A stretch of DNA of 36,871 nucleotides from a virus (IMGVR_UViG_3300042988_000630:1-36871); one strand, 5' to 3'. Shown: positions 778-15,110, counted from the stretch's first letter. Notes: generated by a model from the sequence alone, not told the origin. Program-made: numbers and translations.

Positions 778-803
778 ATAGAGTGGCGACCCGAGGCACA
801 CCA

Positions 804-3800
804 GTGGCGAAAAACACCTTCTTGCAGTCCCCCTTCGACAACCTGTTGCCGGAGGACGCCACCAAGGCCCCGGTGCTGCCCGGACAGCAGCCGGTAAAGG
901 CGCAAGAACTCCCCGCGATCGAGCAGCCCAAGCAAGAGCCTGACACCCGCCAGCCGAGCACCAAGGCCACCAACCTCCTGCCGCCGCCCGACTACCGGCC
1001 GATCTTCGAGGCCGCCGCCAAGGAATTCAACGTCCCGGTCAATGTCCTGATGGCGCTGGGCCACCAGGAGAGCCGCTACAACCCGAAGGCCATCGGGCCC
1101 GAGACGCAGTGGGGCCGCGCACGCGGCATGATGCAGTACCTCGATAGCACGGCATCGGGCTTGGGCATCAACCCGTTCGACCCGGGCGAAGCCATCCCGG
1201 CCGCCGCCCGTCAACTCCGCGAGCGCCTGGACAAGGGCTATTCGATGGAGGACGCGGTGAAGGAGCACTTCGCCGGTCCGAACCGCAAGCTGTGGGGTCA
1301 GAAGACCGCCGCCTACGGCCGCGAGGTCATGGAGAAGGTCGGCCGGATTGGCGAGATGCTGGGCGCCGAGCCTGCGCCCGTCGATGACCTGACCGTCTTG
1401 CAGCAGCGCCTGGACCAAGAGGAACCCGGGCGCTTCCGCGTGGTCACGCCGGAGTTGAGCCGGCAGCTATTCCGCCAGCAGGAGGTCAGCGACGCCGAGG
1501 CGATCCGCGCCATGCCGGCACCGCAGGCCGAGGCGCCAAGCCTTGCCAGCGACGTCGCCAAGATGGGCATCGGCGGTGTCTACAAGGGCATCGGCCAGTT
1601 GGTCGAGGGCATCGGCAAAATCCCGCAGATCGTCGGCGACTACACCACGACGCCGCTCTACAACCTCATCACCGGCCAGGACAAGCGTACCGGCAACCTG
1701 TTGCAGGGCCCCGCCGAGGCGATCAAGCGCTACGGCGAGAACATCCAGGGCGGCATTAGCACCGACACCAAGCAGGCCATCAAGGACTCGGCGCCAGACG
1801 GCAACCTGCTGGAGCCCTCCACGTGGACCTTCGGCAAGGCGCCGAGCGTGCGCGGCTACATGGCCCTGGGTGCTGACGTGCTGGGCGGCATGCTGCCTGT
1901 CGTGGCCGCGTCCGTCGCAACCGGTGGCGCATCGAACGCCGTCCGCATGGGCACGGCCGCCACGGTCGGCGGGGCCCAGGGAGGTGGTGCCGCATCGCAG
2001 GAGGCACGCGACGCCATCAACGACATGGCCCAGAAGGGAACGCTGGAAAAAGAGTCGGCCTACTACCGCGAACTCATCGCCAACGGCAACACGCCCGAGC
2101 AGGCACTCGCCAAGACCCGCGATGCCGCCGAGCGCTGGGCCTTCCTGCTGACCGCGCCGGTTTCCGGTGCTGGCGGCATGGCCACGAGCAAGATCATCTC
2201 GCCAGCCGAGCGCATCTTCTCGGGCGCCAACCTGCCAGCCCGCATCGCCGGCCGCGCCGGCTTGTCCGGGCTTGAGGAAGGCACACAGGAAGTCACCGAA
2301 GCGCTTCAGACCAAGCAGGGCATCAACCAGGGCGCTGGCACCAACCTCAACCCGATGGATGGCACCTTCGCCGACTTCGTGCTGGGTGCCATGGCCGGGG
2401 GCGTGCCGGGCGCAGTGGCCGGAGCCGCGAGCAAGCGGGAAGCTACCCAGCCCGAGGCTATCCAGCCCGCCGAACCTACGCCGGCCGAAACGGCGCCGGC
2501 AGCGCCTGCCGCTCCCGCAGCGCCAGTCACGGCGCCTGCGCCGCAGCCTGCACCCGGCCCGCTGTCCCGCGCCGTCGAGAACGCGGCCGAAGTCGCAGCG
2601 CCTGAGCAGCGCGTGACTGTCACGGCGCCCGAAGGCCAGATTACGGGATTCGTCGAGTCCTACCAGCAGGACGGGCAGGGCGGTTTCGCGGCCCGCGTGC
2701 TGGGCGATGACGGCCAGGTCTACAACTTCACGAGCGCCGATGGCGTCACGATCACGCCCGAGGCGCCGAAAGCCGGCCCGCTGACGGCCGCCGTTGAGGC
2801 CGTGGCCGCAACGCAGCCCGCCGCGCCCGCTCCCGTTCCCGAGCAGCCCGCCGCACCGGTCGAGGCCGCCGCCACTCCGGTGCAGGCTACCCCCGTGGAG
2901 CAGGCCGCGCCTGTTGCGCCCGCACCAGCGCCCGAAGCCGCGCTCGTCCTGGCCGACATGGACGAGGCCGCGCTGCGCGAGCGCCTGAAGTACATCGCCC
3001 GCCAGGCCAAGGACAACGGCGGCTGGAACAAGATGCTCTCGCAGGCCCGCCGCGAAGTCGAGCGCGAGATCAACAAGCGCACTGCACAGCCACAGGAGAC
3101 GAGCAATGCAGCAGTCGATACCGCTCGTGTACGAGTTCGAGATGACGGTGCCGCAAGCCCTCAAGCACCTGCGGAGGCGCAACCTGGTGAGCCTGGAGGA
3201 CGCCAGGCTGTTGCGCAGCCTGCTGATAGCGCGGCGCCCGCTGCCGCAGAAGTTCTACCCGACGCTCGAACTGATGTTCCTTCTGCGGGCCAAACCGCCG
3301 ACGTTGGCACGGCACTGACGCAACCAACCGCCGATGCGGCCGCCACGGGTAAGGGCAAGTCGGAGACGGCCGCCGAAACCGAGTTGAAGGCCGCTCAGGC
3401 GGCCTGGGCTCAGGCGCACACCAACGCGAACGGCCAGCGCCTAAAGACCGCCCGATTGGCACGCTTGCGAGAGCGCCGCAGCGAGGCCGAGCCCGGCACG
3501 CCGCTGCGCCGCGACATCGACAACGACATCGCCCAACTGGAGAAGGAAATCGGGGCTTCCCCTGAAGCCGCTCAGGCCCGCGACGAGCACGCCGGCAAGT
3601 GGTTCGGCAGCCGCGAGAAAGCCGACGCCTACCTGGCCAAGAAGAAAATCGGCGGCACCCATCAAGTCGTGCAGACCGGCAAAGTCCGGTTCGAGGTCAA
3701 ACCGAAAGGAGTTGAAGATGGCAACAACCAACGTCCCGTCGGGCAGCCCGATGGCGCAGAAGCGGTGGTCGGGCAGCAAGCCGGCCAGCAAGCCCAAGCA

Positions 3801-6800
3801 GCAGCAGCCGAAGCCGCCCCGCAAGAAGTAGTAGGGTTCGCTCAGTGGTGGGAGGGCCTGAACGCCGCCCAACAGGCCCAGGCCTTCCAGGCTGTCGGCG
3901 CGATCGGCACTGGATCGCAAGCGACCAAGGCCAGCGAACTGCCGAGCAATGGCATCACCGAACGGATCAAGGCGCTGCACGCCGGTGGCTGGCAGCCCCA
4001 AGCGCAAAATGTCCAAAACGCACCGCAAGGAGCCGCGGCAACCGAAGCTCAAGCCCCGGCAGATCAAGCGCCAGAAACAGCGCGAGGCGATGCAGCCGCC
4101 GCAGCCGCCAATGGAGTACCAGCGGATGGAAGAGCCGCCCCGGTGGAAGCCGCTGGGATAACGGCGGCCAACACCACCGAGCGCAATGCGACTGTCGCGC
4201 CGCCCGCGCAGCCAGCCGCGAACGACGCCGCCGCACCGACCGAGCCGACCCCTCCCGGTGGCGGGAAGCCCGACCTGTTTGCCGGGAACAAGATCTTCAC
4301 CGCCGACAAGGTGGAGGCCGCCCGCGCCCGCCTGCGCTCGAAGTTGAATCAGATGAACTCGGGCATCGACCCCGAGGTGGTCATCGACGGCATGACGATT
4401 GCCGGCGCCTACATTGAGGCGGGTGTTCGCAAGTTTTCGGACTACGCCGCCGCCATGACAGGCGACTTCGGCGACGCCATCAAGCCCTACCTGCTGTCGT
4501 TCTACGAGGCCGCCCGGAATTACCCCGGCATCCAGGCCGATGGCATGACCAGTGTGGAGCAGGCGAAAGCCGAGCACGCCGCACTGATGAAGACCGCCGA
4601 CACCGCGCCGGTTGCAGAGGCAATCGGCGAGACGGTCGAGAAGCCTGCCAAGCGCACCAAGAAGACCGGCGCCAAGACAGACATGACCCTGACGCAGGAT
4701 TGGGGCATGGAGCACATCGACGCCTATTCAGACGAGGGCGAGCAGGTCAAGGCCGCCTTTCTGAAAGAGGCAAAGACCTACCTGAACACGGTGGCCGGCA
4801 TCCTGGCCGAGCAGGGTTTTACCCCCCACACCGACGCCAAAGGCCGCCCGGAAAAGGCGGTGTCGGTGAACGAAAGCGGCGTGGCCACCAGTGGCGACGT
4901 CACGCTGACGCTGGACGGCCCGAACGGCATCGGCATCTACGCCCACATCGGCGGCACGTCACTGCGTGGCGCCGTGCCCACGACGGCCAGCGGCGTGTCC
5001 CTCATGGTCCGCGTGGCGCAAGGGGGCGACCGTTTTGGAGTGAAGGACCGGAACCGCTGGATGCCGGTGGACTTGTCGGCCGCTGACCTGTCAGAGTTGA
5101 TGCGGAAGGCGGTCGGCGAGTTCAAACCCAAAGGAGCGCAAGATGCAAAGCCTGTACAAACCCAGCCTGTACCCGCCCGGGATACGGCAGAAGCTGGGGC
5201 TGATGCCGCCGCTGGCGACCGAGATCGCCAACCGGTGGGCCCTGGGGTGGCCGGAGGCGGTGACGGAACTGCTGAAGGCGGGCAAGTATCTGGAAGCGCT
5301 GACGGCGCAGGAGCAGGCGGAGCGCGAGGCACTGAGCGAGCCGGGCAACAGCCACCTGGCGCGGCACGAGATCGCGCAGGAGTACGGCCTGACGCTGGGC
5401 CCGCCGACAATGCCGCCGACTTCGTAATCGACGCCGAAGACATCGGCAAAGGTGGGCTGGGCAAGAAGTACCGCGACAACGTAGCGGCCATCCGCATCCT
5501 CAAGACCATCGAAACCGACGGCCGCGTGGCCACCCCGGACGAGCGCAAGCAACTGGCGAAGTACGTCGGCTGGGGCGCCATGAAGGGCCCCTTCGACCCC
5601 GAGAACAAGCAGTGGGCCAAGCAGCATGCCGAACTGAAGGAACTGCTGTCGCCCGAGGAATTCCGCGCCGCCCGCAAGTCCACCCTGGACGCGCACTACA
5701 CCAGCCCCGTGGCGATCGGCGCCATGAATGCAGCGCTGGAGCGCCTGGGCTACAAGGGCGGCCGGATGCTGGAGCCGTCCGTCGGCGTCGGCAACTTCTT
5801 CGGCCTGATGCCGGCCGGCGTGCGCAAGGCCTCGCAGCTCTACGGCGTGGAACTGGACTCGCTGACCAGCCGTATGGTGGCCGCGCTCTATCCGAAGGCG
5901 AAGATCGCCAAGGCGACCGGCTTCGAGGACTTCCAAATCCCGTCCGAGTTCTTCGACCTGGTGCAGGGCAATCCGCCCTTCGGCAGCCAGCCCCTGGTGG
6001 ACGCCGAGCGCAGCCCGTACTCGGGCTTCTCGATCCACAACTACTTCCTGGCCAAGGGCATCGACAAGCTGCGCCCGGGCGGCATCATGCAGGTGGTGGT
6101 GTCGCACAACTTCCTGGACGCGCAGGACAACCGCGCCCGCAAGTGGATCAGCGAACGCGCCAGCCTGATCGGTGCTGTGCGCCTGCCCAACACCGCCTTC
6201 AAGGACAACGCCGGTACCGAAGTCGTCACCGACATCCTGATCTTCCAGAAGCGCGACGCCGACGGCGCCGGCCGGTCCGACGTCGTGGACGGCTGGGTGG
6301 ACGTGGTGGACCAGGTGAACACCAACCCCAAGACGGGAGAGAGCGTCACCCACAAGGTGAGCCGGGTGTTCACGCAGAAGCCGAACCTGGTGCTGGGCAA
6401 GCCGTCGGCTGGCGGCACCATGTACCGGGCCAACGAATACACCGTCGAGGCGACCGGCGACATCGGGCCCCAGCTTGACGCCTGGGTGCAGACGCTGCCC
6501 GAGGGCATCTACACGCCGATCGAGCGCAAGCCCGAGGCCGAAACCAACATGGCCGTGCCCGACGGCGTGAAAGCGGGCTCCTACTTCGTGGGCGCCGACG
6601 GCGAGATCATGCAGCGCGGCGACGACGTGCTGGGCGACAAGACCGCCCGCGCCTGGACCGCGCCGAATGCCAAGGCAGCCGAGCGCATGAAGGGCATGAT
6701 CGGCCTGCGCGATGCGCTGCGCACGCAGATGCGCCTGGAGCGCTCGCCCGATGCCGCCGAGGCCGAGATCGAGGCCAACCGCGCCACCCTGAACAAGCTC

Positions 6801-9800
6801 TATGACGCCTTCCTGAAGGCGCATGGCCACATCAACAGTCAGACCAATCGCCGCCTGTTCCTGGACGACACCGAGGCCCAACTGATCCAGGCGCTGGAGT
6901 TCGACTACGACAAGGGCATTAGCAAGGCCACGGCCGAGAAAGAGGGCATCGACCCCCGCGAGCCCAGCGCCACCAAGGCCGACATCTTCAAGCGCCGCGT
7001 GGCCTTCCCGCCGCAGGACTTCATGACCGTTGCCACGGCCAAGGACGCCCTGCTGGCATCGTTGAACTATCGCGGCAAGGTGGACCCCGCCTACATGGCC
7101 GACGTCTATGGCAAGCCCATGGACGAGATCGTCAAGGAATTGGGGGACGTCGTGTACGACGATCCGCAGGCCGGCATCGTCACCGCCGACGAATACCTGT
7201 CGGGCGACGTGAAGACCCGGCTCGCCGAGGCCAAGGCCGCCGCGCAGAGCGACCCGAAGTACAAGCGCAACGTCGAGGCCCTGGAGAAGGTCATCCCGAT
7301 CGACAAGAAGCCGTCCGAAATCTCGGTGAGCATCGGCGCAGCCTTCGTGCCCGCCGAGGTCTACGAGCAGTTTGTCAAGCACATCTCGGGCGGCAATGCG
7401 ACGGCCGGCTACATCAAGGCCACCGGCCAGTGGCTGCTGGCATTCACTGGCGGGACCGAGCCCGCGCTCAACACCGGCAAGTTCGGCACTGCGCAGATGT
7501 CGGCGCAGGAACTGTTCCAGTTGACCATGCTGGGCCGTGGCGCCGTGGTGAAGAAGACCGTGCGCAACCCGGACGGCACCACCACCACGGTGGTCATGGA
7601 GAAGGAAACCGAGGCCGCCCGCGAGAAACAGAACGCCATCCGGGCCGAATGGCAGTCGTGGCTTTGGAGCGAACCGGCCCGCGCCGATCAGATCGCGTCC
7701 ATCTACAACGACAAGATGAACCGGATCGTGAAGCGGAAGTACGACGGTTCGCACCTGTCGTTCCCCGGCATGAACCCGGCCATCAGCCTGCTGGAGCACC
7801 AGAAGAACGGCGTGTGGCGTGGCTTGCAGTCCTACCAGGTGCTCTATGACCACGTGGTGGGCGCCGGCAAGACCTTCGAGATGGCGACGCTGGCCATGGA
7901 GATGCGCCGCCTTGGCATCGCCCGCAAGCCGCTATTCGTGGTGCCCAACCACCTGACGCTGCAATGGCGCAGCGAGTTCACGCGCCTCTACCCAGGCTCG
8001 AACATTCTGGCCGCCACCCCCGAGGACTTCTCGAAGGACAACCGCGAGCGCCTGTTCTCGAAGATCGTCACGGGCGATTGGGATGCCGTCGTGATCGGCC
8101 ATTCCAGCCTGAAGAAGATCGGCCTGCCCGAGGAAACCGAGAAGGCGGTGCTGCAAGAGCAGATCGACGAGGTATCGCAGGCCATCGAGGACATGAAGCG
8201 GGCCCGGGGCGACCGCAACATCGTGCGCGACATGGAGGGCATCAAGGCCCGCCTGGAAGCCAAGATGAAGGACAAGCTCGCCGCCATCGGCAAGCGCTCC
8301 AAGGTAGTGACGTTCGACGAGTTGGGCATCGACGCGATGTTCATCGACGAGATGCACGAGTTCAAGAACCTGGCCTACAACTCCACCATGGACCGCAACC
8401 CGGGCATGGGGAACCCGAACGGCTCGGCCAAGGCCTTCGACCTGTTCGTCAAGACGCGGTGGCTGTTCGACACCTTCGGCGACAAGACCCCCTACATCAC
8501 CGCCACCGGCACGCCCGTCTCCAACTCGCTGGTGGAGATGTTCAACATGCAGCGGTACATGCAGTACCCGACGCTCAAGCGCGACGGCCTGCACGTGTTC
8601 GATGCCTGGGCCAAGCAGTTCGGCAGCGTGGAGAACGTCTACGAGGTGGCGCCGTCTGGCTCCGGCTATCGTCAGTCCACCCGGTTCGCCAAGTTCACGA
8701 ACCTGCCGGGCCTGATGAGCCTCTACAACTCGTTCGCCGACACCATCACGCTGGACGACTTGAAGGCGCAGGAGGAAGCCCAGGGAAAGCGCTTCCCGGT
8801 GCCCAAGATGGTCAACGGCAAGCCGCAGATCGTGGTGGCGCAGCGCTCGCCTGCCGTGGCCAACCTCATGGGCGTGCCCATGGCGAAGACCGACGAGGCC
8901 GGCCAGATCAAGTTCCTGGCCGACCTGAAGGCGCCGATCCAGATCACGCAGAAGCCCGACACCGGCAAGTGGACCGCAAAGGTGGGCGAGTCGCACCTTG
9001 GCGAGTTCGACACCGAGCAGGACGCCCGCCTGAAGATCGTGGAGCGGGCCATGACGCCCGAGGTCACGGTGGACCCCGAATCCATACTCGGTCGCTTTGG
9101 GCGCCTGAAGCAGTTGACCAAGGAAACCAAGGGCAAGGTCAACGCCCTGTCCCTGACCGGCGAGGCCAACAAGGCAGGTTTGGATTACCGCCTCGTTAAC
9201 CCGGCCGCCCCGGACTTCCCCGGCTCCAAGATCAACCTGGCCGTGGACAACATGGTGCGCACCTACAAGCAGTGGGATGCCGACAAGGGCACCCAGCTTG
9301 TGTTCTGTGACCTGTCCATTCCGCTGTCGGCTCGGGCCAGCTATTCGAGCAAGGCCCGCCGCCTGTACGTGCGCGACGATGCCGGCGCCGTGGAGATGAA
9401 GCGCGGCACCATGCACACGCTGGAGGGACAGGAAAGCCTGCCGTACTTCGTGGTGCAGCGGGGCGAGAAGGACGCCAAGCGCTTCGACGTCTATGACGCC
9501 GCCTCGGGCCTGCTGGTGATCCGCGACGCCCGCACCAAGCAGGACGCCGTGGACCAGGCCAACACCGCCCTGGCCGACGAGAACAAGCGCCAGCGCTGGA
9601 TCGACCGCCGCGAGGCTGCCGGCGAGATCACGCAGGAGGCCATCGACGAGTTTAACAACGAGAACGACATCGAGGCCGACGGCATCGAGGCCTTCACCCG
9701 CGAGGACATCGCGGGCGTGTCGGGCGCCGCGAAGTTCTCGGTCTACGACGACATCAAGGCCAAGCTGATCGGCAAGGGCATCCCCGAGCGCGAGATCGCC

Positions 9801-12800
9801 TTCATCCACGACTACGGCACCCCGACGGCCAAGGATAAGCTGTTCAAGGCCGTGAATACGGGCGAGGTGCGCTTCCTGCTGGGCTCCACCCCGAAGATGG
9901 GCGCCGGCACCAACGTGCAGAAGCGCCTGGTGGGCCTGCACCACATCGACGCGCCGTGGCGCCCGTCGGACCTGGAGCAGCGCGAGGGCCGCATCATCCG
10001 GCGCGGCAATGAACTCTACAACCGCGATCCCGAGGGCTTCGAGGTGTTTATCGGCCGCTACGCCACCGAGCAGACCTACGACACCCGCCGCTGGCAAATC
10101 CTGGAGCACAAGGCCCGGGGCATCGAGCAACTGCGCAACTTCGACGGCACGATCAACGAGATCGACGACATTGAGGGCGAGGCCGCCAACGCCGCCGACA
10201 TGAAGGCCGCCGCCTCCGGCGATCCGCTGATCCTGGAGGAAACCCGCCTGCGCAACGACATGCGCCGCCTGGAGCAGTTGCAGGCCGCCCATGCAGACGA
10301 TGTTCTGTCCATGAACCGCAAGGCCCGGTCCGCCGACGAATACGCCAAGACTATCGGGCCGCGCCAACTGGCCGAGGTCAACACGCTGGTGGCGGCCGTC
10401 AAGAAGAACCCCGTGGACAAGGACGGGTTCGCGCCCGTCGCCATCGACGGCAAGAAGTTCGACGCCAAGGAAGCCGCGCAGGAGGAAATCGCCCGCGCCT
10501 TCTCCGTGGTGCGCACCGGCTTGCGCGAGGAATCCATCGTGGTCTTCCGTGGCGTGGAGTTCACGCTGATGCGCAACGGCAACGTGACGCTGGCCGAGTC
10601 GCCCACCGGCACCATCGGCTCGTGGTCGGTGTCCGAGGCCTTCTCGCCAAGTGGTTTCGTGCAGCGCATGGTGAACTACGTCGGCCGCCTGCCGGCCATG
10701 TCCGACAACATCCAGGCCAGCATCGACAAGTCCGCCAAGGATGCCGTGGCGCTGCGCGAGCAGGCCAAAACGCCGTTCGGTCAGGCTGCTGACCTGGAAG
10801 CCGCCCGCGAGGAATACAAGCGCGTGCAGCGTGCCCTGCTGGCCAAGGGCCCGGCTGTGCCTGAAAGCCAGAAGCCGGCCGTGGCCGCTGGTATCGAGGC
10901 ACAGAAGGCCCGGCTGCGCGAGTTGGGGCTAGGCGAGGCCCTGGACGAGTTCTTTGCCAGTGCGGAAGACCAGCCGCGCTACTCGGTGCGCCCCGACGGC
11001 ACGCCGGACGCCGAGTTCGGCCCGTTCTACACCGAGATGGACGCGGGCACCGCCATTGTGCGCCTGATGGGCGAGCAGGCCGGTGAGGCGATCGTCACCC
11101 ATCCAGTCCTGGGCGAAATCAGCCTGGTGTACGGCGACGGCCGCGCCGGCTTGCGCCACATCGCCGACCGCCGTGGCGACGACATCCTGGGCCGGCTGCC
11201 CGACCTGCTGGCCAACGGCAAGGTCTACACCAAGCCCGGGCAGGAAACCCGCGTGTTCGTGGGCAACGACCGCGACGAGGCCGTGCTCCGGCTGGACTGG
11301 AACGGCCAGGCCAAAACGTGGCTGCTGTCGGCCTACGAAAAGTATCCCGACCTGAAGACGGGCCAAACTGCGAAGGTGTCCCGCCGCTCGCAGACAGTGC
11401 GCGAGCGTTCGGCGCCGGGGCTGTCGGTGGCGGAGGCCCGCAAGGCGATCACGACCGGCTCGGTTGGAAGCGTGGTGCGCAACCTGCTGGACAACGGCCT
11501 CATCGTGGTGCACCAGACGCCCAAGACCCTGCCCAAGCGGATTGGCCGCAACGTGCGCAATGTGCAGGCCGTGACGACGCCCGACGGGCGCGTGCACATC
11601 GTGGCCAGCGCCGTCACCCGCGAAAACGCCCGCGCCGTGCTGCTGCACGAGATGTTCCACCAGGGCGGCGAGCGCCTGATCGGCACGGCCGAGTGGGGCA
11701 AGCTGATGGGCCGCATGGCCTCCATCTACCGCCAGAGCGAGCAGTCCACCGGACGGGCCCGGGAGTTCTTTGACCGTGCCCGCGAGCGCGTGGCCGCCGC
11801 CAAGGCGCAGGGCGCGGTGGACACCCGCATGGAGGTGGAGGAATTCGCGGCCTACGCCATTGAGGAATACGAGCGTGCGCCCGACAGCCTGCCGGCCGCG
11901 ATCCGCAAGTGGGTTGAAGACCTGATCGGCGCGGTGAAGGCGTGGCTGTCGGTCCGCTACGGCAAGCAAGTCGGCCAGGTGACTCCTGCCCAACTGGCCG
12001 TTATCGCCAAACTGGCGGTGATCGACAGGGGCGCCAGCTACGGCCCCGAAATGCTCAACGGGTTGGGCACACTGTTCCCTGCCACAGACGGCGCCAACTT
12101 CTCGGTGGCCCCAGAGCAGGCCGGTGCGGTAATCGACGAGGCCAGCAACGCGCTCGACGACACCGGGCCCATCGCCAAGGACGACTACATCGGCCGCGTG
12201 GTGGGCGACCTGTCGCTGGGCGCCAAGCTGATCGTGCACCCGCGCACCGTGGCGGCCGTGCACCCTGAGTTCACGCCGGTCTACCGCACCGCCATCTCGC
12301 AGATGGAAACCCGCGACGAGATCATCTCGGACCTGGGCAAGGACGTGCGGGCCTACGACTTGCTTGAGCAGGCCGGCAAGGACAACGTGAACCGCGCCCT
12401 CGAACTAGGCCGCCTGACGTCCACCGTCTTCAGCACCGACCAACTGCGCGAGGGCGTGGAAAACACCGGCTTCCGCAAGGTGGTGGTCATCGGCGAGGAC
12501 GGGAAGCCCCAGACCGCCAAGGTGCCGGTCACGTCGCTGCTGACCAAGCCGGGCGAGTCCATCACCCTGACCGACGACGAGATCGTGGCCTACAAGGGCT
12601 TGCGGGCGATGTTCGACCGGGCCCTGGACATGATGCGCGACCAGACCCTGGACGAGCTTGGGTTCTCGGAATTCGCCGGCAAGCCGAACGCCGCGCAGGC
12701 GATCCGCGACCTCATCACCGACCAGACGCCCGCCGATCAAGCCGAGAAGCTGCGCAACATCGCCAAGTTCGTGGCCGAGATCGAGCAGGCCAAGCGGGCG

Positions 12801-15110
12801 GGCTACGTGCCCTTCAGCCGTTACGGCGACTACGTGGTGACGGTGAAGGAGAAGATCGCCGACCTGACCTTCAAGGCCGACGGCAACGGCGGCTACCTCG
12901 TCGGCGACGTGCCGGCATCCATGACCGAGGACATGCTATCGCTGGGTGCCACCCAGACCGAGGGCGGCAAGTGGTCGATTCGCGCCGAGCAAAAGAAGGC
13001 CGTGGACCGCCTGACCGAGCAGACCGTCTACTCCGCCAAGGTGGAAACCGGACTGCGCGACCTGATCCCGTCGCGCAGCGCTCAGTCGGTGGAGGACATC
13101 CCAGCCGTGCGCGAGGCGATTGAGAAGGCCCGGCGCGAGTGGGTGGGCGACAATCCGGCCCGCCGCATCGTCGCCTTCAAGAGCACCCAGCGGAAGCCTG
13201 ACGCGCCCGTGCGCCTGTCCGATGTCGATGCCCTGGCCGAGATCGCCAGTATCGACAACGCCACCTGGGACGCCGTGCGCGACAAGCTGGCCGACGCCAT
13301 CAAGTCCCGCAGCTTCCGCAAGCACTTCTTCCACTCCGACAACGTGGCGGGCTACACGGGCGACTTCGAGCGCTCGGTGGCCGACTACGTGATCGGCATG
13401 GCCGGCTACCTGTCGCGGCGCCAGCACATGAAGCGCTGGGACAACTCGGTGTCGGCCATCACCGACAAGCCGAAGCTGGCCGACTATGCGGCGAAGTACC
13501 GGCAGTACGTGAACGACCCGCAGGAGGAACTGGCGCTGGTGCGGCAGATCGGGTTCTTCGCCTACATCGCGGGTGTGATGGCCACGGCCTTCGTTAACCT
13601 GACGCAGGTGCCCATGCTGTCGGTGCCAACCCTGGCGCAGGTGGCGCCCACCTCCCTCGTGCTCAAGGAAACGGCCCGGGCCTACAAGGACGCGCTGAAG
13701 ATGCTGGGCCGCCCGACCCGGGTGGGCCTTGATATGTTCGACCCCGAGAAGGCGCCGGCCGACGTGCGCGACGCCCTGAAGGAGGCTTGGGCCGAGGGCT
13801 CCTTCGTGCCGCTCGAAACCTTTGACCTGATGATGACGGCCCGCCAGCGCAACGTCGGCGCCCGCAAGGGGGTTCGGGCCTTCAACAACGCGACGCAAGT
13901 GGTGTCGATGGCCTTCACCTTCGCCGAGCGCATGAACCGCCTGGTGACGTTCATCGCCGCCGCCCGACTGGCCGAGAAGCGGGCTGTGCAGGAGAACGCC
14001 AAGCGTGTGCTGGCCGGGGATGCCCTGGCCCGCCAGACGACGCTGGGCAAGAACTGGACGCCCAAGAACTTCGCCGAATGGGTGGTGGACGAGTCGCAGT
14101 ACCGCATGGGCAAGGCCAACCGCCCGACCATGATGCGCGGCGTGGGCTCTGCCCTCATGCAGTTCAAGGGCTTCATGCTCCAGACCTTCGAGGCCTGGTA
14201 CCGCATGGCCGCCCTGCACGGCAAGGACGGCAAGCTGGCCGCCCTGGCATCGCTGGCCAGCGTGGTGGCAATCGGTGGTATCTGGGGTCTGCCGGGCGCT
14301 GATGACCTGCGCAAGCTGATCGAGTCGATCTACCGCCAGATCACCACCCGCGACCTCGACCTGAAGACCGAGCTTCGCGCCTGGGTGGCTCGCACCTCGG
14401 GCAGCAATGCCGTCGGCCAGATGGTCACCAAGGGCGCCAGCTACCCGCTGGGCGTGGACCTGACCCGGGTGGGCCTGGGATCGGTGGTGCCGGATTCCCC
14501 GCTGGCAGCGGCCGGCATCCCGTTCGACCTGCTGGTGGGCCGCCCGAAGCGGGCCTTCGAGAAGGGCTCGACCGGCGACTACATCGGCGCGGCCGCAGAG
14601 TTCACGCCGAACTTCGCCAAGAACATGCTGGTGGCTGGTGGCTGGCGCCTCGACGGCGTGCGCGACAAGCAGGGCAACCGCATCCTGACGCCCGACGAGT
14701 TGACCGGTGCCGACATCGGCATGCGGGCCATCGGCTTCCAGCCGTCGATCGTCACCGACGTGCGCGACTACGAGTATGCCCAGCGCCGTCAGGAAACCGC
14801 CGTCGATGCGATGAAGCGCAGCTACACCAACAAGATCGCCAAGGTGATCGGCCAGATGGAGCGCACCAGTGATCCGGCCGAACTCAAGAAGCTGGATGAG
14901 CGGCTGGCGGAACTCTATGCCGAGATCGACGAGCACAACGCGAAGGCCGATCCCGAGGCTGTCATCAGGATCGGGGCGCGTGCAATCCGTAACCGCGTGG
15001 CGCGTGAGATGGAAGGCGTGAAATCGACCTGGGGCCGTGAGCGCAAGGCGGCGCGTGGTGCTGCCGAGGAACTGCGCGGGGTGTTCGGCCTAGACGAGGA
15101 CCAGGAGTAG
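804..15110 (+). CDS. Giant polyvalent ejection/antirestriction protein
   Basis: About 4,768 aa. Start: GTG at 804 with GAGG at 793-796 (7-nt spacer); an in-frame GTG at 783 lacks a clear RBS. Domains in order, with approximate residues from the 804 start: SLT-type lytic transglycosylase (64-185, catalytic Glu in HQESRY, E89); Gly/Ala-rich hydrophobic segments (253-546); small polyvalent modules joined by Ala/Pro linkers (546-1540); N6-adenine methylase (1543-1823, LEPSVGVGN at 1656, NPPF at 1723); SF2 helicase (about 2330-3110, GAGKT with K2356, DEMH from D2515, QREGRIIRRG at 3059); a nuclease-like domain resembling the phage barnase/EndoU/RelE-like group (3391-3523); zinc metallopeptidase (HEMFH, H3615-H3619); and a long C-terminal polyvalent region (from 3766) with hydrophobic stretches near 4250-4283 and 4478-4500. 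By analogy with Bcep22-like phages, it is probably packaged and injected with the DNA. Several linkers overlap small out-of-frame genes. Confidence 0.93.
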   Translation: MAKNTFLQSPFDNLLPEDATKAPVLPGQQPVKAQELPAIEQPKQEPDTRQPSTKATNLLPPPDYRPIFEAAAKEFNVPVNVLMALGHQESRYNPKAIGPETQWGRARGMMQYLDSTASGLGINPFDPGEAIPAAARQLRERLDKGYSMEDAVKEHFAGPNRKLWGQKTAAYGREVMEKVGRIGEMLGAEPAPVDDLTVLQQRLDQEEPGRFRVVTPELSRQLFRQQEVSDAEAIRAMPAPQAEAPSLASDVAKMGIGGVYKGIGQLVEGIGKIPQIVGDYTTTPLYNLITGQDKRTGNLLQGPAEAIKRYGENIQGGISTDTKQAIKDSAPDGNLLEPSTWTFGKAPSVRGYMALGADVLGGMLPVVAASVATGGASNAVRMGTAATVGGAQGGGAASQEARDAINDMAQKGTLEKESAYYRELIANGNTPEQALAKTRDAAERWAFLLTAPVSGAGGMATSKIISPAERIFSGANLPARIAGRAGLSGLEEGTQEVTEALQTKQGINQGAGTNLNPMDGTFADFVLGAMAGGVPGAVAGAASKREATQPEAIQPAEPTPAETAPAAPAAPAAPVTAPAPQPAPGPLSRAVENAAEVAAPEQRVTVTAPEGQITGFVESYQQDGQGGFAARVLGDDGQVYNFTSADGVTITPEAPKAGPLTAAVEAVAATQPAAPAPVPEQPAAPVEAAATPVQATPVEQAAPVAPAPAPEAALVLADMDEAALRERLKYIARQAKDNGGWNKMLSQARREVEREINKRTAQPQETSNAAVDTARVRVRDDGAASPQAPAEAQPGEPGGRQAVAQPADSAAPAAAEVLPDARTDVPSAGQTADVGTALTQPTADAAATGKGKSETAAETELKAAQAAWAQAHTNANGQRLKTARLARLRERRSEAEPGTPLRRDIDNDIAQLEKEIGASPEAAQARDEHAGKWFGSREKADAYLAKKKIGGTHQVVQTGKVRFEVKPKGVEDGNNQRPVGQPDGAEAVVGQQAGQQAQAAAAEAAPQEVVGFAQWWEGLNAAQQAQAFQAVGAIGTGSQATKASELPSNGITERIKALHAGGWQPQAQNVQNAPQGAAATEAQAPADQAPETARGDAAAAAANGVPADGRAAPVEAAGITAANTTERNATVAPPAQPAANDAAAPTEPTPPGGGKPDLFAGNKIFTADKVEAARARLRSKLNQMNSGIDPEVVIDGMTIAGAYIEAGVRKFSDYAAAMTGDFGDAIKPYLLSFYEAARNYPGIQADGMTSVEQAKAEHAALMKTADTAPVAEAIGETVEKPAKRTKKTGAKTDMTLTQDWGMEHIDAYSDEGEQVKAAFLKEAKTYLNTVAGILAEQGFTPHTDAKGRPEKAVSVNESGVATSGDVTLTLDGPNGIGIYAHIGGTSLRGAVPTTASGVSLMVRVAQGGDRFGVKDRNRWMPVDLSAADLSELMRKAVGEFKPKGAQDAKPVQTQPVPARDTAEAGADAAAGDRDRQPVGPGVAGGGDGTAEGGQVSGSADGAGAGGARGTERAGQQPPGAARDRAGVRPDAGPADNAADFVIDAEDIGKGGLGKKYRDNVAAIRILKTIETDGRVATPDERKQLAKYVGWGAMKGPFDPENKQWAKQHAELKELLSPEEFRAARKSTLDAHYTSPVAIGAMNAALERLGYKGGRMLEPSVGVGNFFGLMPAGVRKASQLYGVELDSLTSRMVAALYPKAKIAKATGFEDFQIPSEFFDLVQGNPPFGSQPLVDAERSPYSGFSIHNYFLAKGIDKLRPGGIMQVVVSHNFLDAQDNRARKWISERASLIGAVRLPNTAFKDNAGTEVVTDILIFQKRDADGAGRSDVVDGWVDVVDQVNTNPKTGESVTHKVSRVFTQKPNLVLGKPSAGGTMYRANEYTVEATGDIGPQLDAWVQTLPEGIYTPIERKPEAETNMAVPDGVKAGSYFVGADGEIMQRGDDVLGDKTARAWTAPNAKAAERMKGMIGLRDALRTQMRLERSPDAAEAEIEANRATLNKLYDAFLKAHGHINSQTNRRLFLDDTEAQLIQALEFDYDKGISKATAEKEGIDPREPSATKADIFKRRVAFPPQDFMTVATAKDALLASLNYRGKVDPAYMADVYGKPMDEIVKELGDVVYDDPQAGIVTADEYLSGDVKTRLAEAKAAAQSDPKYKRNVEALEKVIPIDKKPSEISVSIGAAFVPAEVYEQFVKHISGGNATAGYIKATGQWLLAFTGGTEPALNTGKFGTAQMSAQELFQLTMLGRGAVVKKTVRNPDGTTTTVVMEKETEAAREKQNAIRAEWQSWLWSEPARADQIASIYNDKMNRIVKRKYDGSHLSFPGMNPAISLLEHQKNGVWRGLQSYQVLYDHVVGAGKTFEMATLAMEMRRLGIARKPLFVVPNHLTLQWRSEFTRLYPGSNILAATPEDFSKDNRERLFSKIVTGDWDAVVIGHSSLKKIGLPEETEKAVLQEQIDEVSQAIEDMKRARGDRNIVRDMEGIKARLEAKMKDKLAAIGKRSKVVTFDELGIDAMFIDEMHEFKNLAYNSTMDRNPGMGNPNGSAKAFDLFVKTRWLFDTFGDKTPYITATGTPVSNSLVEMFNMQRYMQYPTLKRDGLHVFDAWAKQFGSVENVYEVAPSGSGYRQSTRFAKFTNLPGLMSLYNSFADTITLDDLKAQEEAQGKRFPVPKMVNGKPQIVVAQRSPAVANLMGVPMAKTDEAGQIKFLADLKAPIQITQKPDTGKWTAKVGESHLGEFDTEQDARLKIVERAMTPEVTVDPESILGRFGRLKQLTKETKGKVNALSLTGEANKAGLDYRLVNPAAPDFPGSKINLAVDNMVRTYKQWDADKGTQLVFCDLSIPLSARASYSSKARRLYVRDDAGAVEMKRGTMHTLEGQESLPYFVVQRGEKDAKRFDVYDAASGLLVIRDARTKQDAVDQANTALADENKRQRWIDRREAAGEITQEAIDEFNNENDIEADGIEAFTREDIAGVSGAAKFSVYDDIKAKLIGKGIPEREIAFIHDYGTPTAKDKLFKAVNTGEVRFLLGSTPKMGAGTNVQKRLVGLHHIDAPWRPSDLEQREGRIIRRGNELYNRDPEGFEVFIGRYATEQTYDTRRWQILEHKARGIEQLRNFDGTINEIDDIEGEAANAADMKAAASGDPLILEETRLRNDMRRLEQLQAAHADDVLSMNRKARSADEYAKTIGPRQLAEVNTLVAAVKKNPVDKDGFAPVAIDGKKFDAKEAAQEEIARAFSVVRTGLREESIVVFRGVEFTLMRNGNVTLAESPTGTIGSWSVSEAFSPSGFVQRMVNYVGRLPAMSDNIQASIDKSAKDAVALREQAKTPFGQAADLEAAREEYKRVQRALLAKGPAVPESQKPAVAAGIEAQKARLRELGLGEALDEFFASAEDQPRYSVRPDGTPDAEFGPFYTEMDAGTAIVRLMGEQAGEAIVTHPVLGEISLVYGDGRAGLRHIADRRGDDILGRLPDLLANGKVYTKPGQETRVFVGNDRDEAVLRLDWNGQAKTWLLSAYEKYPDLKTGQTAKVSRRSQTVRERSAPGLSVAEARKAITTGSVGSVVRNLLDNGLIVVHQTPKTLPKRIGRNVRNVQAVTTPDGRVHIVASAVTRENARAVLLHEMFHQGGERLIGTAEWGKLMGRMASIYRQSEQSTGRAREFFDRARERVAAAKAQGAVDTRMEVEEFAAYAIEEYERAPDSLPAAIRKWVEDLIGAVKAWLSVRYGKQVGQVTPAQLAVIAKLAVIDRGASYGPEMLNGLGTLFPATDGANFSVAPEQAGAVIDEASNALDDTGPIAKDDYIGRVVGDLSLGAKLIVHPRTVAAVHPEFTPVYRTAISQMETRDEIISDLGKDVRAYDLLEQAGKDNVNRALELGRLTSTVFSTDQLREGVENTGFRKVVVIGEDGKPQTAKVPVTSLLTKPGESITLTDDEIVAYKGLRAMFDRALDMMRDQTLDELGFSEFAGKPNAAQAIRDLITDQTPADQAEKLRNIAKFVAEIEQAKRAGYVPFSRYGDYVVTVKEKIADLTFKADGNGGYLVGDVPASMTEDMLSLGATQTEGGKWSIRAEQKKAVDRLTEQTVYSAKVETGLRDLIPSRSAQSVEDIPAVREAIEKARREWVGDNPARRIVAFKSTQRKPDAPVRLSDVDALAEIASIDNATWDAVRDKLADAIKSRSFRKHFFHSDNVAGYTGDFERSVADYVIGMAGYLSRRQHMKRWDNSVSAITDKPKLADYAAKYRQYVNDPQEELALVRQIGFFAYIAGVMATAFVNLTQVPMLSVPTLAQVAPTSLVLKETARAYKDALKMLGRPTRVGLDMFDPEKAPADVRDALKEAWAEGSFVPLETFDLMMTARQRNVGARKGVRAFNNATQVVSMAFTFAERMNRLVTFIAAARLAEKRAVQENAKRVLAGDALARQTTLGKNWTPKNFAEWVVDESQYRMGKANRPTMMRGVGSALMQFKGFMLQTFEAWYRMAALHGKDGKLAALASLASVVAIGGIWGLPGADDLRKLIESIYRQITTRDLDLKTELRAWVARTSGSNAVGQMVTKGASYPLGVDLTRVGLGSVVPDSPLAAAGIPFDLLVGRPKRAFEKGSTGDYIGAAAEFTPNFAKNMLVAGGWRLDGVRDKQGNRILTPDELTGADIGMRAIGFQPSIVTDVRDYEYAQRRQETAVDAMKRSYTNKIAKVIGQMERTSDPAELKKLDERLAELYAEIDEHNAKADPEAVIRIGARAIRNRVAREMEGVKSTWGRERKAARGAAEELRGVFGLDEDQE
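3106..3318 (+). CDS. Nested gene N1 inside the giant ORF (70 aa, unknown)
   Basis: The ATG at 3106 has AGGAG at 3094-3098 (7-nt spacer). The 70-aa product has a balanced composition, with helices rich in Leu/Arg (LKHLRRRNLVSLEDARLLRS), unlike an out-of-frame shadow. By hand count only about 7 of 70 codons end in A or T, so the GC3 bias follows this frame. Here the giant frame reads a featureless Ala/Pro/Gly/Asp/Arg stretch between two well-formed modules. The gene starts where the module ending in INKRTAQPQE finishes. Function unknown. Either a genuine overlapping gene or a former separate gene read through by a fused ORF. Confidence 0.55.
   Translation: MQQSIPLVYEFEMTVPQALKHLRRRNLVSLEDARLLRSLLIARRPLPQKFYPTLELMFLLRAKPPTLARH
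3718..3831 (+). CDS. Nested gene N2 inside the giant ORF (37 aa, basic)
   Basis: AAAGGAG at 3705-3711 precedes the ATG at 3718 by 6 nt. The product has 37 aa, ends at TAG TAG and is Lys/Pro/Gln rich (KPASKPKQQQPKPPRKK), suggesting a small basic, possibly nucleic-acid-binding peptide. It uses the same frame as N1 and N4 relative to the giant ORF. The 30 nt around its start closely match those around the N4 start (5117-5146). Function not recognised. Confidence 0.45.
   Translation: MATTNVPSGSPMAQKRWSGSKPASKPKQQQPKPPRKK
4009..4161 (+). CDS. Possible nested gene N3 inside the giant ORF (50 aa, basic)
   Basis: This frame encodes a 50-aa basic peptide rich in Lys, Arg, Gln and Pro (KPRQIKRQKQREAMQPPQ), with most codons ending in G or C. 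It occupies another Ala-rich linker of the giant protein and uses the same frame as N1, N2 and N4. Unlike them it has no clear Shine-Dalgarno sequence. An upstream in-frame ATG at 3949 overlaps a protein-like part of the giant frame and seems less likely. Weakest of the four nested candidates. Confidence 0.28.
   Translation: MSKTHRKEPRQPKLKPRQIKRQKQREAMQPPQPPMEYQRMEEPPRWKPLG
5143..5427 (+). CDS. Nested gene N4 inside the giant ORF (94 aa, unknown)
   Basis: The ATG at 5143 follows AAAGGAG (5130-5136) at 6 nt. The 94-aa product looks like a folded protein: a short Tyr/Pro-rich N-terminus, then helical segments such as TEIANRWALGWPEAVTELLK and a C-terminal SRHEI-like stretch (LARHEIAQEYGL). By hand count about 9 of 94 codons end in A or T. 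The overlapping giant frame is Gly/Ala/Asp/Arg-rich low complexity and becomes protein-like again exactly at the nested stop (ADFVIDAED). The gene lies between the module ending EFKPKG and the methylase domain. I know no function for it; strongest nested gene of the four. Confidence 0.6.
   Translation: MQSLYKPSLYPPGIRQKLGLMPPLATEIANRWALGWPEAVTELLKAGKYLEALTAQEQAEREALSEPGNSHLARHEIAQEYGLTLGPPTMPPTS

Follow-up and report, generated by a model that had tools for sequence, protein, structure and literature searches.

DarB-like or polyvalent giant proteins, known from Bcep22-like phages and from phage P1 (DarB), are virion proteins (PMC9144972). The window analyzed here, the whole of a 36.9 kb virus record (IMGVR_UViG_3300042988_000630) from a DarB-type podophage, encodes a giant that belongs to this class, and the linkers of this giant contain four small open reading frames (ORFs), N1 to N4, that are read in a shifted frame of the same strand. 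The last of these, N4, lies just before the methylase domain, at a position termed slot 4. A term search of a survey of polyvalent proteins (PMC5512222) found no nested genes, and P1 darB was rejected as a carrier, since its start is at the methylase and it lacks the slot.

Fully nested same-strand genes that are conserved over long distances have rarely been documented in bacteria. Rz1, which is embedded in Rz in Bcep22-like phages (PMC9144972), resembles the slot-4 gene in being a same-strand gene wholly inside another, with a shifted frame and an internal start; however, Rz1 works with Rz as part of a lineage-bound pair, whereas the slot-4 gene has stand-alone relatives, and it is the linker of the big frame that looks secondary. 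TnpV (PF14198), of Firmicutes mobile elements, resembles the slot-4 product in being a small helical protein, and a role in excision was postulated for TnpV of Tn4451 from its similarity to lambda Xis (PMC3158075). As described, TnpV is encoded by an ordinary gene, whereas most slot-4 genes sit in a methylase-helicase giant and not beside a recombinase; furthermore, most slot-4 proteins, N4 included, fall below the Pfam cut-off for TnpV.

The presence of nested genes in the linkers is confirmed by sequence comparison, by which they also appear more widespread than first noted. Very probably, the giant carries complete +1-frame small genes in its linkers, the giant frame reading through them. 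N4 would, with good confidence, represent in this phage an old gene that marks the leading edge of DarB-type methylase-helicase giants, whether these are encoded by phages, prophages, or plasmids.

Conservation of the Slot-4 Gene and Its Reading Frame

A lack of N1 and N4 homologues elsewhere would have counted against the original prediction, but both recur: N1 in one other locus (L003), and N4 in 13 other sequences (30-71% identity), in all of which the homologue is in the +1 frame, starts with ATG, and stands just before the methylase. Among 36 giants compared, 34 have a slot-4 ORF for which the preference in log units (LLR) for the nested over the giant frame exceeds 8, as scored with codon usage learned from the methylase-helicase portion of the giant, and the ORF is always +1; the remaining two (L039 and L024) have a weaker but homologous slot-4 ORF. 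The gene is likewise present in all 13 further phage records scanned (BcepIL02, DC1, CSP3, JC1, PEp14, Stean, LASTA, USP_18, Mwe-JY07, Atu_ph08, PBC5, Itty13, and 8P), none of which has a separate annotation for it; in PBC5 it forms the tail of orf33. A profile of the A1 branch of this family detects 42 loci in bacterial and archaeal genome records (Rhizobiales, Acinetobacter-like, Planctomycetes, many Verrucomicrobia, and one archaeal bin that may be contaminated); at 39 of these loci, the giant frame extends across the whole nested gene. Across 28-70% guanine-plus-cytosine (GC) content, a +1-frame gene occurs in or near slot 4 in all 36 giants, all 13 phage records, most of the 42 loci, and six of 10 plasmid regions, and the +2 register is never used in slot 4 among the loci compared. 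The +1 register appears to be favored because the G/C-rich third position of the nested codons is the first position of the giant codons, where stops need T; in the other register, stops are frequent in the giant frame.

Substitutions concentrate at the nested third position (the giant first) in six separate groups, and in the same groups the nested second position (the giant third) has the lowest or near lowest substitution. The ratio of nonsynonymous to synonymous substitution rates (dN/dS), proposed in the original prediction as a frame-by-frame check, bears out the nested frame: it is 0.03-0.39 for the nested frame, whereas the giant frame is mostly >1 within the overlap and 0.0-0.35 downstream of it.

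Within the window, N1, N2, N3, and N4 all lie inside linkers of the giant and share its +1 frame, as had been proposed for a common alternative frame of the 14.3-kb ORF; the Shine-Dalgarno (SD) sites credited to N1, N2, and N4 are also present and are strong. N4 (positions 5143-5427, + strand; 94 aa) encodes the slot-4 family protein, predicted to be TnpV-like and helical, and follows the SD sequence AAAGGAG (5130-5136); its codon LLR is 80, and its 13 homologues are nested too. N1 (3106-3318, +; 70 aa; LLR 65) has the SD sequence AGGAG (3094-3098) 7 bases 5' of its ATG, and N2 (3718-3831, +; 37 aa, basic; LLR 16) is preceded by AAAGGAG (3705-3711). N3 (4009-4161, +; 50 aa, basic) is the weakest of the four and a possible nested gene, with an LLR of 39 for the ORF taken from 3985 and no ribosome site found in the sequence; for both N2 and N3, the best-scoring start is slightly upstream of the start listed here. 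Among the alternative-frame ORFs of the giant, only N1 to N4 exceed an LLR of 8 (4 of 14 upstream, 0 of 27 downstream).

GC content at third codon positions (p3), which with codon usage had been named as a test of the frame switch, moves to the nested frame over N1 (giant p3 0.42 vs. nested p3 0.85) and N4 (0.46-0.49 vs. 0.88-0.93), and the shift is weaker across 3680-4160. N1 and its nested homologue in L003 are identical at 25 of 54 positions, with a z score of 16 in the nested frame vs. 2 in the giant frame. For N2, three nested homologues are known, in L007, L027, and L023. The claim that nested genes occupy linkers with a frame-switched codon bias is thus upheld very strongly for N4 and, through their homologues, for N1 and N2; what speaks for N3 is codon bias, and N3 may possibly not be a gene. 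N1 to N4 themselves had no match in Pfam, PHROG, or NCBIfam. In tblastn searches of phages, N4 matched 8P only and N1 matched none, and the giant segment 4269-5142 gave no match when used as a locus query.

Origin of the Nested Genes and Competing Explanations

A single mRNA would be translated into the giant polypeptide from the giant's own start and, by internal initiation at each nested ribosome site, into each small protein. The small gene would be the older frame, and the giant's linker would have arisen by read-through once the stops had gone. That the small gene is probably older than the low-complexity linker is suggested because one slot-4 branch is TnpV, which also exists stand-alone.

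The original prediction offered two readings, namely small genes engulfed by a readable frame and the overprinting of linkers; the former fits better and the latter worse. Under de novo overprinting, an older giant would have given rise to new +1 small genes within its disordered linkers, in keeping with the low complexity and tolerance of the linkers and with the narrow distribution of N1 to N3. However, slot 4 has relatives that stand alone, as well as a Pfam family that exists outside the giant; the nested frame has a genome-like codon bias such that the giant frame there looks like a by-product; and the giant of L016 harbors a similarly nested HNH endonuclease family. For these reasons, capture of small genes rather than birth from the linker is preferred. 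Overprinting is improbable overall and is disfavored for slot 4. The L016 gene (3737-4351) encodes a 204-aa HNH endonuclease (PHROG 3377, E 3e-53) in the +1 frame of a giant whose frame stays open, and is a mobile gene inserted without breaking the host frame.

Programmed frameshifting, in which the nested frame would provide an alternative C-terminus for the upstream half and no separate protein, is very unlikely. It is favored by phage PBC5 (L050, 7152-8279), where the giant is split: the upstream frame enters the nested frame and terminates at the nested stop codon (orf33), and the methylase starts as orf23. This frame break may be an old sequencing error, or it may be real. Start signals argue against frameshifting. 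Of 77 slot-4 genes, 75 start with ATG; SD matches of at least 4 bases precede 82% of slot-4 genes vs. 21% of control ATGs, and matches of at least 5 bases precede 51% vs. 4%. Furthermore, 38 of the 77 have a stop in the nested frame no more than 20 codons ahead of the ATG, and a stand-alone relative (L055), located in a Corticibacter island without any giant, begins at the same Met.

The giant might instead be untranslated across the slot, in which case the locus would be an operon with several distinct genes and the long ORF an artefact, as is suggested by some Pseudomonas-type plasmids whose annotation includes the small gene and starts the methylase downstream of it. This reading is very unlikely. 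The number of stops in the giant frame argues against it: 75 overlaps contain none, vs. 220 expected by exact calculation from the nested protein and local codon usage alone. A Campylobacter jejuni plasmid, at 28% GC, has 0 vs. 16.8 expected, and for the Acinetobacter-type locus L066 alone, 7.6 giant-frame stops are expected (p 6e-6). In addition, the Verrucomicrobia loci have the QLDLFS-type N-terminus of the giant, in the same frame, ahead of the nested ATG. Taken with the substitution data, these counts indicate that both frames of the slot-4 pair are under selection or constraint.

In the window alone, 0.91 giant-frame stops are expected over N4 (p_open 0.39), and the nested frame given the giant has a p_open of 0.75, so that two open frames are unsurprising at the GC content of the window and the proof is comparative rather than local. 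The proposal that the nested frame is no gene and is open merely through high GC and codon bias, which these values would allow, is hardly credible and for slot 4 is refuted by homologues at 28-50% GC, dN/dS, start signals, and folded models.

Several points weigh against small genes captured in slot 4 as partners of the methylase-helicase. The nested products are predictions, and what ties the small protein to the methylase or helicase is co-occurrence. The counts of open frames and substitutions cover related loci, which are not independent, so the 75 overlaps are not 75 independent tests, although the stop deficit still holds singly at low GC. N3 had no significant homologue in the comparison of nested ORFs. 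A2, the branch of N4, joins A1 weakly (hhalign E 0.007-0.02). Four of 10 plasmid regions examined have no slot gene (a Ti plasmid, Acetobacter, Lactococcus garvieae, and Lactobacillus crispatus), and the slot gene is therefore not indispensable to the methylase-helicase.

For small-gene capture with read-through, we propose from co-occurrence that the slot-4 protein is a partner of the methylase-helicase; as its constant neighbor, it would work with it during DNA entry. It is an even bet that a TnpV-like gene has remained completely nested, always in one register, in DarB-type giants from the phages, prophages, and plasmids of several phyla as an overlooked methylase-helicase partner, and that, in a reversal of ordinary overprinting, linkers are read-throughs of captured genes, homing endonucleases included. 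Capture of small genes whose read-through becomes linker would be a route by which giant proteins grow. The slot-4 protein is also a candidate missing component of DarB-type antirestriction and could be removed by a start-codon change that is silent in the giant frame.

Family Relationships and Plasmid Carriers

Of 32 A1-family proteins, 28 match TnpV at E values up to 0.1 (best 3.7e-6), below the curated Pfam cut-off of 27 bits. Two nested genes are TnpV by Pfam, that of Cohnella (106 bits, E 1e-30) and that of Listeria (27.7 bits). N4 itself has no TnpV match in Pfam, and a search of the window for the TnpV family found none. A1 and A3 are homologous (hhalign E 1e-10), and A1 and A4 are probably so by profile alignment (E 4e-4). 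The A2 profile finds a bridging protein, the product of a plasmid gene of Pseudomonas migulae (E 1.7e-5). AlphaFold2 models of N4 (predicted local distance difference test, pLDDT, 88.7) and of the A1 family (85.5) are confidently predicted helical bundles with a similar helix order. Based on the shared slot, the predicted helix order, and the bridging plasmid protein, the slot-4 branches are treated as one superfamily, with reservation for the A2 link.

A structure search of BFVD gave nothing significant for N4. In the PDB, the A1 model matches only entry 2apl (DUF1896-like) with Z 7.4 and a root-mean-square deviation of 2.1 over 64 residues, which is below the level trusted for helical bundles; the N4 model has no PDB match at Z of at least 5, and 2apl was not seen. 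By sequence, no relative with a solved structure was found. A match of A1 to PHROG 938 ("endolysin") was rejected as indicating a lysis function because its source is orf33 of PBC5, the end of which is read in the nested frame. In Pseudidiomarina (L064:4974-5759), a slot-4-like domain is fused to membrane helices in a stand-alone gene.

Relatives of the methylase occur on 1284 plasmid records. In six of the 10 plasmid regions examined, an open giant frame encloses a +1 nested gene, the carriers being C. jejuni, Listeria, Cohnella, P. migulae, Streptomyces, and Rhodococcus (the last with a nested gene of another family). These carriers were found via the methylase, after an A1 search of plasmids with one divergent query had given no match. 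There are 212 plasmid records with the C. jejuni nested gene, listed under "SNF2-related protein," and 65 with the P. migulae-type gene, often annotated as a hypothetical protein. Hundreds of sequenced plasmids and phages have the slot-4 gene, mostly without annotation, since gene callers retain a single frame and either drop the small gene or shorten the giant. A published ribosome profiling (Ribo-seq) map of C. jejuni strain NCTC11168 does not mention pTet and so has no bearing on the nested gene of the plasmid.

In P. migulae plasmid pD2RT (L098), the small gene is annotated (3160-3465) and the start of the N-6 DNA methylase is set at 3795, inside the methylase domain, despite a giant frame that is open from 3018; the conflict arises from the overlap. 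In Rhodococcus plasmid pDJL2 (L103), the +1 nested gene of the other family (2539-3168; 209 aa) is annotated as hypothetical, and the open giant frame begins with a QFDLFD motif.

The Giant Gene of the Window and Other Nested ORFs

The giant ORF (783-15110, +; 4775 aa) encodes a DarB-like antirestriction or polyvalent protein (PHROG 10089, E 0). Its domains include a lytic transglycosylase (SLT) domain (1005-1286, +; PF01464, E 3.7e-10, residues 75-168), an Eco57I-type adenine methylase domain (5910-6170, +; PF07669, E 4.2e-6, residues 1710-1796), and a ResIII/SNF2-type helicase domain (7827-8369, +; PF04851, E 4.3e-6, residues 2349-2529); a Helicase_C domain was also matched. An adenine methylase and an SNF2-type helicase are thus combined in one polypeptide, as defines DarB-like proteins. 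The giant is flanked by a gene for a virion protein; farther away lie genes for an endolysin-like protein, a RecE-like exonuclease, replication functions, and a terminase-like protein. The closest annotated relatives of the window are podophages, such as Pseudomonas phage 8P and Bcep22-like phages. A homologue of the giant, gp69 of phage JC1, was detected in virions by mass spectrometry with 51 unique peptides (PMC9144972). The giant of the window is, by its PHROG match, an ordinary DarB-like giant; by analogy with gp69, it would be packaged in the virion and injected.

In phage Itty13 (L005, 2561-8974), the giant is unannotated, and two minus-strand ORFs are annotated there as hypothetical proteins. 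Many other giants have further nested ORFs upstream of slot 4. Among these is a second basic family, of tiny nested proteins with the motif LKPxKPSKQKRNxKK, in the upstream linkers of L045, L007, L006, L033, L009, and L014; for most of these loci, the distance to slot 4 is about 1-2 kb. In two related viruses, a +1 nested ORF of 71 aa with an LLR of about 30 lies in the C-terminal part of the giant (L014:12383-12598 and L015:12383-12598).

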